DNA of 64,000 bases from an uncultured Verrucomicrobia subdivision 3 bacterium (GTDB lineage Bacteria > Verrucomicrobiota > Verrucomicrobiia > Limisphaerales > UBA11358). Location of the stretch: contig CAILMI010000054.1 in NCBI GenBank assembly GCA_903835255.1, forward strand, positions 1 to 64,000, given 5' to 3'. Position 1 is the first letter of the stretch. Every line of letters begins with the position of its first letter. The position numbers were made by a program, and so were the translations under genes. The notes beneath the pieces were generated by a model. That model was given only the letters and a program-made list of their open reading frames with translations. It made no database searches and was not told the origin of the DNA. Below are positions 5,076 to 23,609 of this stretch, one piece after another.

Positions 5076-6968
5076 TTATTTCCCGGAGCGATTGACCCGG
5101 AGCACGGCTTCGAGGTACTTCCTCCCGTGTTTCTGGTCGGGTTCAAGATAAGTGCCCTGAGCCCAATCGTTCCAAGCGTTGACAAACACCAGGCGCTGCT
5201 CAAAGGGCTTGCCCTCCACCGAGCGAATCATCTCCTCGAGACCTTTGGCAAACCTCTCCGGGGTGGCATTGCGGACGACCACACCCTTTTTCCCCAAGTG
5301 CGGGGTGGTGTCCATGCCGGTGAATAGGCAAGGATGAAACGGATAGTCACGCTGGCGGCGGCGCATGTGTTTGCGGACGGCGGCGTAATCAAACACGTTC
5401 ACGCCCCCCCCACGGACCTTGGGCAACCCGCCGAGCTGCGGCTCAAAATCCAGGCTGGCATCGAGGCCGTGCAGACGCCAGTCGGTGTGTTTCCCCGAAT
5501 TGATCCCGATGAGATGGGGCGCGGGCAGTTTCTTTTTCTTGCAGGCGGCGCGGAGGGCGGCGGCAAAACGTTCCAGATCCGGCAAATCGTCCGGCCGGTT
5601 GATTGCAAAAACCGGATGACCGTCCACACGCAGGTAGCGCGGGTCCTGGAAGGCGCTGGCGAGCCACGCCGCATGCGCGCGGTCGTCAGCCGCGGAGTAG
5701 ATCTGTTTGACGGGAATGCCTTTCCGCCGGCCGGCCGGGAGGTCCGACCGGGTCTGGTTGGACCAGGCGAGACAAAAGGGGAAATCCGGATGGCCGGTCG
5801 CAAGGATTTCATTCACCGGCCGCTCGAACCGGCGGCGGCCGCCAGACCAATAATGCCAGTAGCAGAAGGCCTCGATGCCATGCTCGCGGGCGAGCGCCGC
5901 TTGCTGGGCGCGGGTTTCCGGCAGGCGCAGATCGTAGTAGCCCAGATCCGCCGGCAAGCGCGGCTGGTCATGCCCGGCAAAGAGAGGCTGGGACTTGGCC
6001 ACGACGGTCCACTCGGTCGCCCCCCGCCCCCCTGAGGCCTCGCCCTCCGGCGTGGGATGGAAATGAGGCAGATGAAAGGCGATGAGCCGGGCGCGGGGGG
6101 ATTTCAGGCGCCGGACGGACGCCGAAGGCATCGCCAGGCCGGCCCGCAGCTGGGATTGGGTCGCCAGCCCGTGCCGGTAATAAACCGGGCCGGCTTCCCG
6201 GATGAAAATCTCTTTTTGCGAGCGGGTCCAACTGTTCCAGGGCGAGCGGTTGTAATCCCGTTTTTTCGAGAAGCTGGAATGGAGGCGCTGGGTTTTTAAC
6301 AATTGAATGGGCCCGGCCTCCGGCGACAAGCCCAGGAACTGGTAGATCGAGGCGAAGGTCTCCTCCGGACGGCTCACCAAATGCTCTTGCCGCACCGTGA
6401 GGCAGCGGCCGGGGTTTGCGACGGAGAAATCCAGCACCTTGCCGGCGTACTCCCGCCAGGTCCGGCAGGCCTCGGTGAAATCCAGCCAGGGGATGTCCCA
6501 GCCGGCTTTTTTGAATTTTTCACGGACCGCCGGCTGCAGCGCGTCCTGGAAATGAATCATGGAGTGGACCGCGCGGCGGCCGTCGCGCAACAGATGGAGG
6601 AACTGGGCGTCCGGGAACATTTCTCCCAGCCGGTCCACCATCAGCGACTGCACCGGGGTGTGGTCGATCCACCGGCGGTCGCCGCTGCGGCTGGTGAACA
6701 GCGCATTCACGCCCAGCCCCAGGGCCGCCAGCAACTCCGTACGGGAAATCTTTTCCTGCTGGATCAAGCTGCCGTCGCCCAGCACCTCGGCAGTCTGGAA
6801 AAGCGCATTGAAATTTTTGTCGCCGCGCGCGCCGCCGAAGATTTCGGCCAGCACATAGCTCTCCCCCGAGGTCCAGAGCTGGCTGTGCTCGGCCAGCGCC
6901 CATGCCGCCACGGTGGTCCCGGAACGCGGGGCCCCCAGGATAAAAATCGGTTTTTTACAAAGTTTCAT
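5076..6968 (-). CDS. sulfotransferase fused to a WbsX-like (GT99-type) domain
   Basis: The protein has 630 aa from the ATG at 6968, which overlaps the upstream sulfotransferase stop (ATGA). Residues about 5-270 are a PAPS-dependent sulfotransferase: the 5'-phosphosulfate loop is IFILGAPRSGTT and the 3'-phosphate site is FLHLLRDGRRAVHS. Residues about 293-628 are a WbsX-type glycosyltransferase/GH99-like domain (LIAFHLPHFHP, ADLGYYDLRLPETR, FCYWHYWSGG). It is paralogous to the C-terminal domain of the 1453-aa protein in the same operon. Compared with that copy, two acidic motifs are altered: NEPW is NQTR (Q405) and WNEWAEG is WNDWAQG (D601, Q604). This domain may therefore bind rather than transfer sugars. 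The likely role is modification of a surface glycan. Confidence 0.8.
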   Translation of the reverse strand: MKLCKKPIFILGAPRSGTTVAAWALAEHSQLWTSGESYVLAEIFGGARGDKNFNALFQTAEVLGDGSLIQQEKISRTELLAALGLGVNALFTSRSGDRRWIDHTPVQSLMVDRLGEMFPDAQFLHLLRDGRRAVHSMIHFQDALQPAVREKFKKAGWDIPWLDFTEACRTWREYAGKVLDFSVANPGRCLTVRQEHLVSRPEETFASIYQFLGLSPEAGPIQLLKTQRLHSSFSKKRDYNRSPWNSWTRSQKEIFIREAGPVYYRHGLATQSQLRAGLAMPSASVRRLKSPRARLIAFHLPHFHPTPEGEASGGRGATEWTVVAKSQPLFAGHDQPRLPADLGYYDLRLPETRAQQAALAREHGIEAFCYWHYWSGGRRRFERPVNEILATGHPDFPFCLAWSNQTRSDLPAGRRKGIPVKQIYSAADDRAHAAWLASAFQDPRYLRVDGHPVFAINRPDDLPDLERFAAALRAACKKKKLPAPHLIGINSGKHTDWRLHGLDASLDFEPQLGGLPKVRGGGVNVFDYAAVRKHMRRRQRDYPFHPCLFTGMDTTPHLGKKGVVVRNATPERFAKGLEEMIRSVEGKPFEQRLVFVNAWNDWAQGTYLEPDQKHGRKYLEAVLRVNRSGK

Positions 6969-7870
6969 CGTTGAAGTTTCCGCGCAGCCCGCGGGGCGTT
7001 CTGCCGGACCCCCCGCGCAGGGGAGGTGCGGCCTTGGGCGCCTTCTTTCTTCGGGGACTTTTTGAGCTTCGCAGCCAGTGTGGGCGCGGTCTCGTAGCCA
7101 CAAGCGATCAGGTTTGCCCCAATCAATTTGAGGCTCCGGCATTGCTGATCCGCATCAAACACCTTGCTCCAATCGGATGCCGCCACGTTTGTAATATCGC
7201 GCGTGGGCAAGCTAAATGGAGTGCGCTTCTCCTGCTGGCTCTCACAAAACCGCGCCACGGAGTCGACCATGGGAATTTGCAGGAACTGAAATAGTTTCAC
7301 CGCCATGCCCAGGTCGTCGCGAATTAAATCTTCGTAACGCAGTTCAAAGTATTTTTCAGCAGCCTGCGTCTTACCGAAAGCCGTCCCGCGTTCGATATGG
7401 CCATTCCAGAGGTGATGCGCGGTCAAAAAATCCGCCCAAGGCTCACCATTAGAATGATGGCGGCGCGTTAAGGAAGCGACCACATCACGACCATCGCGGA
7501 TGATATGGATGAATTTCGCGCCGGGGAAAAGTTCAACAATGGTCTGGAGCGTGCCGACATTGGCTGTAGTCAAAGAGAGCGGATTTTTATCTCCCCAATA
7601 ACGCGCCTGCGGTTTCAATTTGGAATAGAAATTGCGGATGAGTTTCGGATAACTCACACGCAGGTGCTCCATAAACTCCTCACGATGAGTGACAAGAAAA
7701 TCATCCTTATTTGTAATCACTTTGAAGGACTGATGAAGCCAGCCGAAGAGCCGCGCTTCATGGCTGATGTAAACATCGGGGTGCTCATTAAGGATGCTAT
7801 GCAAATAAGTCGTGCCAGAGCGCGGAGCGCCGAAGATGATAATGGGATCCCGTGATTGTTTAAAGGCCAT
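6965..7870 (-). CDS. sulfotransferase family protein
   Basis: The protein has 301 aa. The PAPS-binding loop IIIFGAPRSGTTYLHSIL is at residues 10-27, and the 3'-phosphate region FIHIIRDGRDVVASL is near residue 120. These mark a Sulfotransfer_3-type enzyme that moves a sulfuryl group from PAPS to a carbohydrate or other acceptor. The C-terminal 35 residues are basic. The gene overlaps its neighbours on both sides (11 bases upstream, 4 downstream), so it belongs to the glycan operon. Its base composition is visibly lower in GC than its two neighbours, suggesting a separate origin. Confidence 0.85.
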   Translation of the reverse strand: MAFKQSRDPIIIFGAPRSGTTYLHSILNEHPDVYISHEARLFGWLHQSFKVITNKDDFLVTHREEFMEHLRVSYPKLIRNFYSKLKPQARYWGDKNPLSLTTANVGTLQTIVELFPGAKFIHIIRDGRDVVASLTRRHHSNGEPWADFLTAHHLWNGHIERGTAFGKTQAAEKYFELRYEDLIRDDLGMAVKLFQFLQIPMVDSVARFCESQQEKRTPFSLPTRDITNVAASDWSKVFDADQQCRSLKLIGANLIACGYETAPTLAAKLKKSPKKEGAQGRTSPARGVRQNAPRAARKLQR

Positions 7871-15648: not shown

Positions 15649-17076
15649 TCAGCGCGGGCTGAAGCGCCGGCCGTAACTGGAAGGGCGGCTGGGGAAATGG
15701 CGTTCATTGCCCCCTTCGCGATTGCCGCTGACCGGTTGTTGCGGACGGCCGCCGCCGGATTGCGGGCGACTAGCGCCACCGTTTTGGGGCCGGCCATCTT
15801 GCGGCGGCCGCGGATGCGGATGCGAGGAGGCTTGGCGGGGACGCTGTTGACCGCCTGATTGACCGCGCTGCGGTCCACGCTGCTGGCCCCGGCCTTGTTG
15901 CGGATGGCGCGGGCGATCTTCCACCACATGCGGGACCACCTGGGCATAATTAAATCCCTCCGCCCGCTTCCGCACGATGCCGCGGCCAATGAACCGCTCC
16001 AGCGCGCGCAGCTCGCCATGATCCTCCGGGGTGACAAAACTGATGGCGTCGCCCACCGCCTGCGCGCGGCCCGTCCGGCCGATCCGATGGACATAATCCT
16101 CCACGTGCATCGGGAAATCATAGTTCACCACGTGCGAGATACCGTCCACGTCAATGCCCCGGGCGGCAATGTCCGTGGCCACCAACACGCTCACCACGCC
16201 GGACTTAAAATCCTTCAACGCCTTGAGCCGCTGATTTTGGGAGCGGTTGGAATGGAGGGTGGCCGTCTTGACCCCATTTTGTTCGAGCTGCCGCGCGAGC
16301 CGGTCGGCGGCGTGCTTCATGCGGGTGAAGACCAGCACCATGTCCATGGCGGGCTCCTTCAAAAGATGAACCAGCAGCGCGGTCTTCAGCGACTTCGGCA
16401 CTTCATACACCAGCTGGGTGACCGTCTCGGCGGGATTCGAGCGGCGGCCGATCTGCACCGTTTTCGGCGCGTGCTGAAACTCGTGCGTGAGGGTTTCAAT
16501 TTCCTTGGAAAGCGTGGCGGAGAAAAGCAGCGTCTGGCGCTTCGGCGGCAGCGATCGGACGATCTGGCGGATGGAAGGCAGGAAACCCATATCGAGCATC
16601 CGATCCGCCTCGTCAAGCACCAGGTACTGCAACTGGGAGAAGTCGGCGTAGCGGCGCTGCATCAGATCCATCAACCGGCCGGGGCAGGCGATGATGAGAT
16701 GCGTGCCGGCGCGCAGAGCATTGATCTGGGGATTTTCGCCGACGCCGCCGAACACGGTGGCGACGCGCAGCGGCAGATGTTTGCCGTAGGCTTTGACATT
16801 CTCCTCGATCTGCAGAACCAGCTCGCGCGTCGGCGCCAGCACCAGGGCGCAGGTGCCGCGCTGGCGCCCGTCGCCCACAACGGCAGCTAGCCGGGTGAGC
16901 ATTGGCAGGGTGAACGCCGCGGTTTTTCCCGTGCCCGTCTGGGCGATGCCGATGAGGTCGTGTCCGGCCAGGATCGGCGGGATGGCCGCCGCCTGGATGG
17001 GCGTGGGCTCGGTGTAACCGGCTTCCTTCACCGCCTGCAAAACTTTCGGGTCCAATCCCAGCGCGCTAAATGACAT
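15649..17076 (-). CDS. rhlE: DEAD-box RNA helicase, RhlE-like
   Basis: The protein has 475 aa. All core motifs are present: Q motif (GYTEPTPIQAAAIP), motif I AQTGTGKT, Ia PTRELVLQI, II DEAD, III SAT, V ATDIAARGID and VI HRIGRTGRA. The C-terminal 85 residues are low-complexity, rich in Q, R, G and P (QQGRGQQRGPQRGQSGGQQ). RhlE-type helicases unwind RNA duplexes in ribosome assembly or mRNA decay. The gene is monocistronic, and its promoter lies in the shared region up to 17270. Confidence 0.92.
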   Translation of the reverse strand: MSFSALGLDPKVLQAVKEAGYTEPTPIQAAAIPPILAGHDLIGIAQTGTGKTAAFTLPMLTRLAAVVGDGRQRGTCALVLAPTRELVLQIEENVKAYGKHLPLRVATVFGGVGENPQINALRAGTHLIIACPGRLMDLMQRRYADFSQLQYLVLDEADRMLDMGFLPSIRQIVRSLPPKRQTLLFSATLSKEIETLTHEFQHAPKTVQIGRRSNPAETVTQLVYEVPKSLKTALLVHLLKEPAMDMVLVFTRMKHAADRLARQLEQNGVKTATLHSNRSQNQRLKALKDFKSGVVSVLVATDIAARGIDVDGISHVVNYDFPMHVEDYVHRIGRTGRAQAVGDAISFVTPEDHGELRALERFIGRGIVRKRAEGFNYAQVVPHVVEDRPRHPQQGRGQQRGPQRGQSGGQQRPRQASSHPHPRPPQDGRPQNGGASRPQSGGGRPQQPVSGNREGGNERHFPSRPSSYGRRFSPR

Positions 17077-17176: not shown

Positions 17177-17205
17177 TTTACAAAAGGCGCGCGCTTACGC
17201 ATGAT
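17177..17205 (+). promoter_or_regulatory. candidate promoter of the lysine-rich mini-gene
   Basis: TTTACA at 17177-17182 (five of six matches to the -35 consensus) is followed, after 17 bases, by CATGAT at 17200-17205 (four of six to -10). Transcription would start about 60 bases before the mini-gene. No other pair of this quality was seen between 17077 and 17271. Confidence 0.35.
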
Positions 17206-17271
17206 GGATTCATCTCCGGGGAAACTAACCATCCCGAAGTGTAGCAAACTAAAAAAAAAACACATAATACT

Positions 17272-17343
17272 ATGGCCACTAAATCAAAAGCCAAGAAGCC
17301 CGCCAAGAAAGCCGCAAAGAAATCCGCTTCTAAGAAAAAGTAG
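17272..17343 (+). CDS. 23-aa lysine/alanine-rich histone-H1-like peptide
   Basis: The ATG at 17272 opens 23 codons ending in TAG. The peptide has 11 Lys, 6 Ala, 3 Ser, 1 Thr and 1 Pro (opening MATKSKAKKPAKK, ending SASKKK), the composition of histone H1 tails and chlamydial Hc1-type proteins. Positive charge and lack of hydrophobic residues suggest binding to DNA, RNA or ribosomes. No Shine-Dalgarno is visible; an A-rich leader precedes the ATG. A strong hairpin plus T-tract follows 14 bases after the stop, so the unit looks like a free-standing gene. Translation is unproven, and a leader peptide for the next gene is the main alternative. Confidence 0.55.
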   Translation: MATKSKAKKPAKKAAKKSASKKK

Positions 17344-17357
17344 TTCTCCCTCTAAAG

Positions 17358-17400
17358 CTGTCTCCTTTGACTCATACTCAGAGGAGACAGATTTTTTTTC
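17358..17400 (+). terminator. strong hairpin terminator between two small genes
   Basis: CTGTCTCCT (17358-17366) pairs perfectly with AGGAGACAG (17382-17390), with ATTTTTTTT immediately after. It ends only 14 bases before the next ATG (17414), so it may end the mini-gene transcript or act as an attenuator for the downstream gene. Confidence 0.88.
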
Positions 17401-17413
17401 CCCACACGCCGCC

Positions 17414-17659
17414 ATGAAACTCCGCCAAGGCCAGATCTGGAAACAGGGCAAGGAATATATCCGCATCGTTAAGCTGGAGCGGCTGGCGGTGAGCTACAAG
17501 TCCATGCTGAGCCTCACCACCCGCGAAGGCACCCTCCATCAGACGAGTAAAAAAGATTTCTGCCGGCTGCTCAAGCAGGCCAAACTTCTCTCCGCCGGCA
17601 AAGCCCCGCCGGCAACCCCCGCCCCATCCGACCCGACGACGCCCCTGCCCGCAGCCTGA
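17414..17659 (+). CDS. small basic conserved-looking protein
   Basis: The protein has 81 aa from the ATG at 17414. The first 65 residues (KLRQGQIWKQGKEYIRIVKLERLAV...) read as a compact beta-rich domain: an alternating hydrophobic pattern, then the TSKKDFCRLLKQAKLL helix. The tail is Pro/Ala-rich. No named family is recognised. The start is chosen at the Met that begins the ordered domain; sequence upstream in this frame is the shifted mini-gene and the terminator. It lies just before pyruvate carboxylase on the same strand with a 97-base gap. Confidence 0.7.
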   Translation: MKLRQGQIWKQGKEYIRIVKLERLAVSYKSMLSLTTREGTLHQTSKKDFCRLLKQAKLLSAGKAPPATPAPSDPTTPLPAA

Positions 17660-22147: not shown

Positions 22148-22888
22148 TTGCAACGCGCGCTAAAAAGTCATTACCGCGTGCTGGGGCTGGACCGCCGCTG
22201 CACGCTGGAGCAAATCCGCAACGCCTATCGGTTGCTGGCCAAGCAGCATCACCCCGACGTGAACCACGGCTCACGCGAAGCCGTGGCGCGGACGCAGGAG
22301 CTCAATGCCGCCTACGAAACTCTGGGAGACCCCGATCGCCGCCGCGCGTACGACCGCGAACTGGACGCGACCCCGCCGCCGGCCACGCCCGGACGGGGCA
22401 CGACCCTTCAGCGCAACCTGACCCAGGATGTGAACTTGCGCCTGGAGGATTTCCTGCGGGGAACGACCCGGGAAGTGCGCGTCCACGACCCTGCCAACCC
22501 GGACGGCTCTGAACTCTACGACCTGATTGTGCCGCCGGGAACCGCGCCGGGCACCCGGTTTCGGCTGGCACGGACCGGTTTTTTTTCGGGGGGCCACGTG
22601 CAAGTGCGCGTGAAGGCGATGGCCGGATTTCCCTTCACGGTGCGCGGATCGGATGTGCGTTGCGATCTGCGCATCCAGCCTGCCCGCGCGCAGCAAGGCG
22701 GCGTGGAAATGGTTCAGAGCCTCAACGGCGGCCGGTTGCGCGTGACCATCCCCCGCGGCGCCGGACGGGGCGAGCTCGTGCGCCTGACTGGCGAAGGCCT
22801 GCCCAAGCCGCGCGGCGGGCGCGGCGACCTGCTCGTGCGCCTCACCTACCGCGTGGAGGTCCGCGTGTCGCGTCCCCCCGGACGCTAA
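22148..22888 (+). CDS. J-domain co-chaperone without zinc finger (CbpA/DnaJ-like)
   Basis: The protein has 246 aa, starting at TTG. A J domain covers residues 6-70 with the HPD triad in KQHHPDVN, which stimulates DnaK ATPase. The Gly/Phe region is replaced by a short Pro/Thr/Gly linker. The Cys-rich domain is absent, and a DnaJ_C-type peptide-binding region follows (about 90-240; IVPPGTAPGTRFRLA, VTIPRGAGRGELVRLTGEGLP). This type II architecture resembles CbpA. The canonical dnaJ lies 0.7 kb downstream on the same strand, with a repeat-rich stretch between. Confidence 0.88.
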   Translation: MQRALKSHYRVLGLDRRCTLEQIRNAYRLLAKQHHPDVNHGSREAVARTQELNAAYETLGDPDRRRAYDRELDATPPPATPGRGTTLQRNLTQDVNLRLEDFLRGTTREVRVHDPANPDGSELYDLIVPPGTAPGTRFRLARTGFFSGGHVQVRVKAMAGFPFTVRGSDVRCDLRIQPARAQQGGVEMVQSLNGGRLRVTIPRGAGRGELVRLTGEGLPKPRGGRGDLLVRLTYRVEVRVSRPPGR

Positions 22889-23060
22889 GGTCTGGATTTG
22901 GTGACGTCGCCACGATTTATGAAAAGGGTCTAGGATTCGGGCTTACCCAAAAATACTCATCTGGTCTGGATTGGATCACCCAAGCGGGAAGCAACGGGAC
23001 CGGCTTGAATCTCCGCACCCCAGCTTCTATAGCCGTTAAAATTAACCTTGGGACATCGGC

Positions 23061-23180
23061 GGAAAGGGCGGGCTATCCTCTGCCCGCCGCCGTTGCCAAT
23101 CCACGCGTGCGGATTGACCGCGATGGCGCGCACGAAGTGACGCGCCCTACCTGTCCCAAAGTTGCTAAGAACTGCTCTAA
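23061..23180 (-). repeat. dispersed repeat family 1, copy B
   Basis: Read on the minus strand, it starts AGAGCAGTTCTTAGCAACTT and ends in a GCGGGC-AGAGGATA-GCCCGC hairpin. It shares these blocks with copies at 33899-33983, 51770-51876 and 52021-52114. An internal element GGTAGGGCGCGTCACTTCG...GCGCGCC forms a second hairpin. Confidence 0.85.
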
Positions 23181-23214
23181 AACGATGACTTCAAACACAG
23201 CTTCGCTCGGGCGA

Positions 23215-23260
23215 CTCAATTCCACTTTTTGTTGCATATGCAACAAAAAGGTGAATTGAG
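23215..23260. repeat. 46-base near-perfect palindrome
   Basis: The sequence is symmetric about 23237/23238. The central 26 bases (CTTTTTGTTGCAT and its complement) are perfect and the arms extend to CTCAATT/AATTGAG with two mismatches. It can form a very long hairpin in either RNA strand, lies between two J-domain genes, and is AT-rich unlike its surroundings. Confidence 0.9.
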
Positions 23261-23283
23261 TTTTTAAGGGGGAAAGTTCTCAA

Positions 23284-23568
23284 TTATGCGGCGGCGTAGC
23301 GCTGCACGGCCAATTTGAGCGTAGGCCTGCCGACCGCCCGACTCCACGCCGCCAACGCAGTGAGGCGAAGAACAGGGGGGATATCAAAAAAGCGCCCCCT
23401 CACCGTCCCTGCCTCTATTTCATGGCGGAGAGAAGAAGTCAGCGGACCTCCGATACCCAGCGCCGGTTGAGCCGGCTCCGGTCTCGACCACGGCTTGAAA
23501 GGCATCGTTCCGGCTGAGATTTCCAAATGACGTCGCCGGCATCCAATAAACCTTGCCATTTTTCCCAT
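23284..23568 (-). CDS. hypothetical 94-aa reading frame, doubtful
   Basis: An open frame on the minus strand between the palindrome and dnaJ. The sequence (GPLTSSLRHEIEAG, RLTALAAWSRAVGRP) has no recognised motif. It is listed because nothing else explains this 300-base gap, but it lies in a repeat-rich region and could be a non-coding or decayed element. The palindrome just past its stop could serve as its terminator. Confidence 0.25.
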   Translation of the reverse strand: MGKMARFIGCRRRHLEISAGTMPFKPWSRPEPAQPALGIGGPLTSSLRHEIEAGTVRGRFFDIPPVLRLTALAAWSRAVGRPTLKLAVQRYAAA

Positions 23569-23609
23569 TTTCCCTAGTGTTTGCGACTACTTTTAAAGAA
23601 TAGAAAGAA

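Follow-up and report, generated by a model that had tools for sequence, protein, structure and literature searches.

Among the closest described counterparts of the peptide reported here are Hc1 and Hc2 of the Chlamydiae, which belong to the same PVC superphylum, and BpH1 of Bordetella; all of them are positive, low in sequence complexity, and rich in Lys, Ala, and Pro. Studies have shown that the Lys-rich C-terminus of Hc1 is its DNA-binding part, that Hc1 also has a conserved N-terminal dimerisation domain, and that Hc2 is 165-237 aa long with pentamer repeats (PMC2848022). In contrast, the family studied here is a bare tail of 20-36 aa. Similarly, AlgP and PhaF of Pseudomonas have a KPAA-type composition, and AlgP-type KPAA peptides bind DNA in vitro (PMC9239181). 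In AlgP and PhaF, a 154-aa repeat region is fused to a predicted helical domain, whereas the peptide described here is free, short, and made from its own transcript.

Among stand-alone proteins that are short and very basic, bTHX and Sra are ribosome-associated. The present family resembles them in all three traits, but its profile had no sequence match to any PDB chain. At the RNA level, titles cited in a review indicate that 5' stem-loops stabilise bacterial mRNAs (PMC3997798). The stem-loops of ompA and papA are comparable to the present case in that a hairpin is predicted near the 5' end of the transcript; they differ in that here conservation extends from the stem pairing to the loop sequence and the hairpin is linked to a single gene family.

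In this study, we analysed a Lys-rich mini-gene in a 64,000-nucleotide stretch of verrucomicrobial DNA, which is referred to as the window. Searches of Pfam, NCBIfam, Rfam, and PDB (by sequence) gave no significant match for the Lys-rich peptide or for its paralogue, which carries the motif MGDKSPK, and no relevant paper was found in the literature searched on Lys-rich small proteins in Verrucomicrobia or on this motif. Together, the two peptides make up a small-protein family that is new but of a general kind already known, and the RNA motif in their leaders is likewise undescribed.

The Lys-Rich Frame and Its Conservation

The open reading frame MATKSKAKKPAKKAAKKSASKKK (17272-17343, + strand) runs from ATG to TAG and encodes 23 aa, comprising 11 Lys, 6 Ala, and 1 Pro among others, with no acidic (D/E) and no aromatic residues and with the N-terminus MATKSKAKK. 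The count of 11 Lys and six Ala given by an earlier reading of the sequence alone (hereafter the sequence-only reading) agreed with the translation. Within the 64 kb window, no other ORF between 18 and 60 aa long reaches 40% Lys, and no further Lys-rich peptide of the same type was found in the window's own genome. The sequence-only reading had called the peptide histone-like. The K/A/P-rich composition free of acidic residues bears this out, but no H1-like Pfam model was matched: Hc1 and HC2 stayed below the cut-off, the best HC2 value was E 0.18 in one of 15 members, and the window peptide itself gave no match.

A tally of 49 same-genus genomes was made by hand from leader matches and ORF reads. 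The Lys-rich frame was present in 28 of them; 24 genomes had both this gene and the paralogous 41-aa gene, 4 had the Lys-rich gene only (including the window's genome), 9 had the 41-aa gene only, and 12 gave no leader match, either because the gene is dispensable, because the search missed it, or because it was lost through incomplete assembly. The orthologues are 20-36 aa long, mostly start with MATK, MAKK, or MAAK, and end with KKK. The Lys-rich copies that were read all lie within the window's genus. One relative (G009) carries two differing Lys-rich copies (L198, G009:C35; L038, G009:C36) and no MGDKSPK gene; the contamination listed for this assembly is 7%, so two strains may be mixed.

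In 16 pairs of equal length, pN was 0.063 and pS was 0.497 (ratio 0.126), although the pairs are non-independent and the ORF is short. The closest pair had 4 synonymous and 0 non-synonymous differences. Counted over eight pairs, codon positions 1, 2, and 3 had 17, 10, and 45 substitutions, respectively, at 201 sites each, which places 45 of 72 at the third position. The pairs share branches, so both pN/pS and the position counts are descriptive. A coding frame is by far the best reading because the changes are biased to the third position and the length changes are in frame, and the comparison of relatives places the frame under purifying selection. The sequence-only reading had proposed looking for codon conservation upstream of the 81-aa gene, and such conservation was found: changes are mostly at third positions and the frame is kept. 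It had also named, as the outcome that would speak against a gene, relatives that keep the hairpin and lose the frame; in the relatives, both were kept.

Promoter and 5' Leader

The predicted promoter (17177-17205, + strand) consists of the -35 element TTTACA (17177-17182), a 17-nt spacer, and the -10-like element CATGAT (17200-17205). It had already been proposed from the window alone; our scan recovered it, and its -35 and -10 positions were conserved across 19 leaders. The 19 aligned upstream regions share a conserved -35, a conserved CATGATG, and then a hairpin of the form C..CGGRGAAAC....AUNCCG..G, which ends approximately 30 nt 5' of the start codon. This 5' leader hairpin (17214-17239, + strand) has the consensus CNNCGGRGAAACN(4-5)AUNCCGNNG by covariation and RNAalifold. 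Transcription probably starts a few bases past the -10 element, which would put the hairpin nearly at the 5' end of the transcript.

Four of the 7 pairs of the leader hairpin showed double-sided compensatory change, with 13 such cells; none of 500 shuffles scored as high, and every slid register was worse. The loop residues GAAAC and AU were almost invariant in the 19 leaders. The window's own hairpin is imperfect, with a C.A mismatch (17216/17237), and is absent from the minimum free energy (MFE) fold of the full transcript, so its formation in the window's genome is uncertain. Between the hairpin and the start codon lies an A-rich, unstructured leader (17240-17271, + strand), where a word search in 65 copies found no Shine-Dalgarno-like GGAG, GAGG, AGGA, or AAGG in bases -16 to -4 (0/65).

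A covariance model of promoter and leader, R1, was built from the 19 sequences, including the window copy. It matched 52 of 97 relatives, often with two matches 1-5 kb apart. The match to the window reached 79.3 bits (E 4e-13), and since this copy was among the training sequences, it is the second copies recovered by the model that give independent support. The window's own genome contains one R1 match below E 0.01. Rfam 15 gave no match over the unit at gathering or permissive thresholds, and the leader RNA motif is undescribed and absent from Rfam.

Two other ideas about the leader were dropped. A motif search for mimicry of rRNA found no site within rRNA and only GGAGAAAC just past the 16S 3' end, probably by chance; in L207, the sequence after the 16S rRNA 3' end is TAAGGAGAAACC, which is like the leader motif GGAGAAAC, again probably by chance. 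Pairing of the leader GGAGA with UCUCC of the 3' hairpin was an idea formed by eye and is broken in some relatives.

3' Hairpin and Termination

After the stop codon, the window unit carries a 3' hairpin of the CUGUCUCYCCUGA type, CTGTCTCCTTTGA...TCAGAGGAGACAG (17358-17390, + strand), which was supported by folding and covariation. It has 13 pairs including G-U and a folding energy of -20.6 kcal/mol (z -4.2, 0/200 shuffles as good); the perfect 9-bp hairpin described by the sequence-only reading is the core of this 13-pair stem. In 27 aligned copies, compensatory double changes occurred at 10 of the 13 pairs, and 96.3% of cells were paired vs 36-50% in slid registers. Of 65 copies, 62 keep at least 9 pairs. 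The idea of a genome-wide repeat was rejected, as the window's genome has the arm pattern at a single place.

Right after the hairpin comes ATTTTTTTT, with eight T; the scan placed the T-tract at 17391-17399 (+ strand). On these features, the hairpin and T-tract together read as an intrinsic terminator in the window's genome. As a general trait, however, the pairing of hairpin and T-tract did not hold, since only 23 of 65 copies have five or more T among the 10 bases past the stem, and many relatives are without a T-tract. The 3' hairpin is therefore more constant than a terminator reading alone needs, and termination in every relative is not certain.

The comparison supports the claim that the frame is transcribed as a separate unit, between a promoter and a hairpin of terminator type. 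In the copies compared, conservation covers the promoter, both hairpins, and the frame together, as one unit of approximately 190 nt. Frame and both hairpins are kept jointly in relatives, not by chance, which is strong comparative evidence that the 23-codon frame is a stand-alone small-protein gene. Every element named in the sequence-only reading was present where it had been placed; that reading had overlooked the leader hairpin at 17214-17239, its T-tract is not general, and a 41-aa paralogue exists besides.

Neighbouring Genes

The 81-aa gene (17414-17659, + strand) belongs to an undescribed small family and usually lies directly downstream of a K-rich or MGDKSPK gene. DNA and protein searches in the same genus and order found it in 39 of 59 genomes, many with a short Lys-rich ORF upstream. 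Provided that the terminator works, this gene lies outside the mini-gene transcript. The family, with the pattern KLxQGQVWK..RIVRLERLEVEYK...SKKDFCRLLK, had no Pfam, NCBIfam, or PDB sequence match. It is predicted to be small and mostly beta, with good confidence over the first 60 residues (mean pLDDT 79.9), and the best structural matches were not significant (TnsB, E 0.11). On the other side, a divergent gene for a RhlE-type DEAD-box RNA helicase (15649-17076, - strand) served as a synteny marker; the helicase gene and the 81-aa gene are frequent neighbours in relatives.

The 41-aa Paralogue and the History of the Family

The second match of R1 precedes a 41-aa frame, MGDKSPK(A/S)(N/T)QKKSGQK...KSAAGKKK, which shares the leader and is followed by a 3' hairpin of like kind; the comparison shows that the Lys-rich and 41-aa genes have both elements in common. 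In most genomes having both genes, they lie 1-5 kb apart. The window peptide (MATKSKAKK) lacks the N-terminal MGDKSPK motif and was filed as a paralogue of the MGDKSPK unit. The MGDKSPK gene itself was not found in the window's own genome, which has kept only the Lys-rich copy.

Within the order, 114 of 217 genomes, belonging to 49 of 93 genera, encode the MGDKSPK protein; in a sample taken across the phylum, 10 of 289 genomes do. Named records include Limisphaerales, Akkermansiaceae, Opitutaceae, and others, and a recognisable leader hairpin precedes several Opitutaceae-type copies. A few matches bear titles of other phyla and may be mis-binned. By these searches, the 41-aa gene is the wider form, and it is frequent in an order of Verrucomicrobiota from soil and water. 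We believe that the simplest history is one in which the 41-aa gene is older and the Lys-rich gene is a duplicate that arose at genus level, retained the expression signals, and was reduced in its product to a K/A/P polycation.

Some single loci are worth recording. In G012 and G033 (L031, L045), the MGDKSPK protein is 38 aa long with a K/A/P-rich second half, and the sequence of the 3' hairpin is unrelated; this form looks intermediate between the 41-aa and the Lys-rich gene. In G016, the 41-aa unit lies between a DnaJ-like gene and a gene starting MEKNRLEAFSDGV. The counterpart of the DnaJ-like gene in the window is at 22148-22888, and the MGDKSPK unit is absent from the site after it in both the window and G001. 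The stretch after it in the window (22889-23609) had no significant similarity to the MGDKSPK unit of G016, and the site in G001 is cleanly empty; the G016 and G001 loci compared are L194 at approximately 1506 (- strand) and L199 at approximately 6230-7000. Further downstream in G001 is a promoter stretch that resembles the leader but is followed by no ORF, possibly a relic.

Proposed Function

We believe that the mini-gene is a conserved, genus-level duplicate of the 41-aa gene, whose stable mRNA yields a disordered, nucleic-acid-binding polycation in large amounts, and we give this reading a probability of about 0.6. With hairpins predicted at both transcript ends, the most economical reading is a short, stable mRNA that serves an abundant product. 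The near-5'-terminal hairpin and the 3' hairpin would shield the short mRNA from decay, and the protected mRNA would allow the peptide to be made in quantity. With no acidic and no aromatic residues, the peptide should be disordered. The KPAA and Hc1 analogues suggest that it would bind nucleic acid through its charge, and the partner may be rRNA, mRNA, or the nucleoid. The peptide would then act as a diffuse condensing or chaperoning factor, not as an enzyme or a tRNA sensor. Judged by composition, the most likely product is a plentiful, disordered polycation with affinity for nucleic acid; an H1-like function is plausible, as is the coating of nucleic acid or binding to ribosomes that the sequence-only reading had suggested.

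Ribosomal proteins repress their own mRNAs, and the unit might likewise be an autoregulated or dual-function RNA, in which the basic peptide itself, or some other protein that binds RNA, would attach to the leader hairpin, possibly to the 3' hairpin as well, and so repress the mRNA. The leader hairpin is recognisable before MGDKSPK genes in other families of the class, its near-invariant loop GAAAC and AU exceeds what mRNA protection alone needs, and both paralogues retain it despite diverged coding parts. However, the motif has no Rfam match and no similar site within rRNA, and the window's own copy has a stem mismatch; we regard this explanation as possible, with the odds clearly against it. 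The same low standing is given to the bolder picture of a free-standing 20-36 aa "histone tail", derived by duplication from the 41-aa protein and made from a dedicated short mRNA, with the peptide binding the leader hairpin for feedback.

Another explanation, which we hold to be doubtful, is a ribosome-associated small basic protein like bTHX or Sra and not a coat of nucleoid or RNA. The size, the charge, the C-terminal KKK, the inferred strong expression, the conserved N-terminal motif of the 41-aa form, and the adjoining RNA helicase gene all fit such a role. Against it, the family profile matches no PDB chain, ribosomal chains included, and the distribution is patchy even inside the genus.

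The sequence-only reading had also offered a leader peptide that senses lysyl-tRNA. In such an attenuator, ribosomes would stall at Lys codons when lysyl-tRNA is scarce, the 3' hairpin would fail to form, and transcription would enter the 81-aa gene. The eleven Lys codons, a hairpin 14 nt past the stop codon, and a conserved downstream gene speak for this idea, but we disfavour it as improbable. No conserved alternative antiterminator was seen; the whole-transcript fold of the window has a long-range pairing, but the segment past the stop codon that takes part in it has a different look in relatives. The 41-aa paralogue, under the same leader and hairpin, has fewer Lys and a fixed non-Lys MGDKSPK motif and precedes different genes. 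Moreover, the frame length ranges from 20 to 42 codons, the T-tract is absent in several relatives, and the 81-aa gene is no recognisable lysine gene (no Pfam or NCBIfam match), and other neighbours occur in relatives. Finally, a chance ORF within an A-rich stretch between the promoter and terminator of a non-coding RNA, which the very short, A-rich, low-complexity sequence might suggest, is very hard to reconcile with conservation by codon and in-frame length changes across same-genus genomes.

Genes so short are usually overlooked, and low-complexity ones are mostly dismissed; in this study, comparison strongly supports the reality of one such gene and ties it to a small-protein family of about half of the sampled genomes in a verrucomicrobial order. 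The occurrence of the 41-aa form in Opitutaceae records means that cultivated relatives should permit direct tests. If the feedback reading is true, the unit would be a nucleic-acid condenser reduced to a minimum, one that regulates itself and lacks any folded domain. A product that does coat nucleic acid would amount to a minimal H1-type tail found in nature, and the role of a polycation in the bacterial cell could be studied with it in a simple setting.
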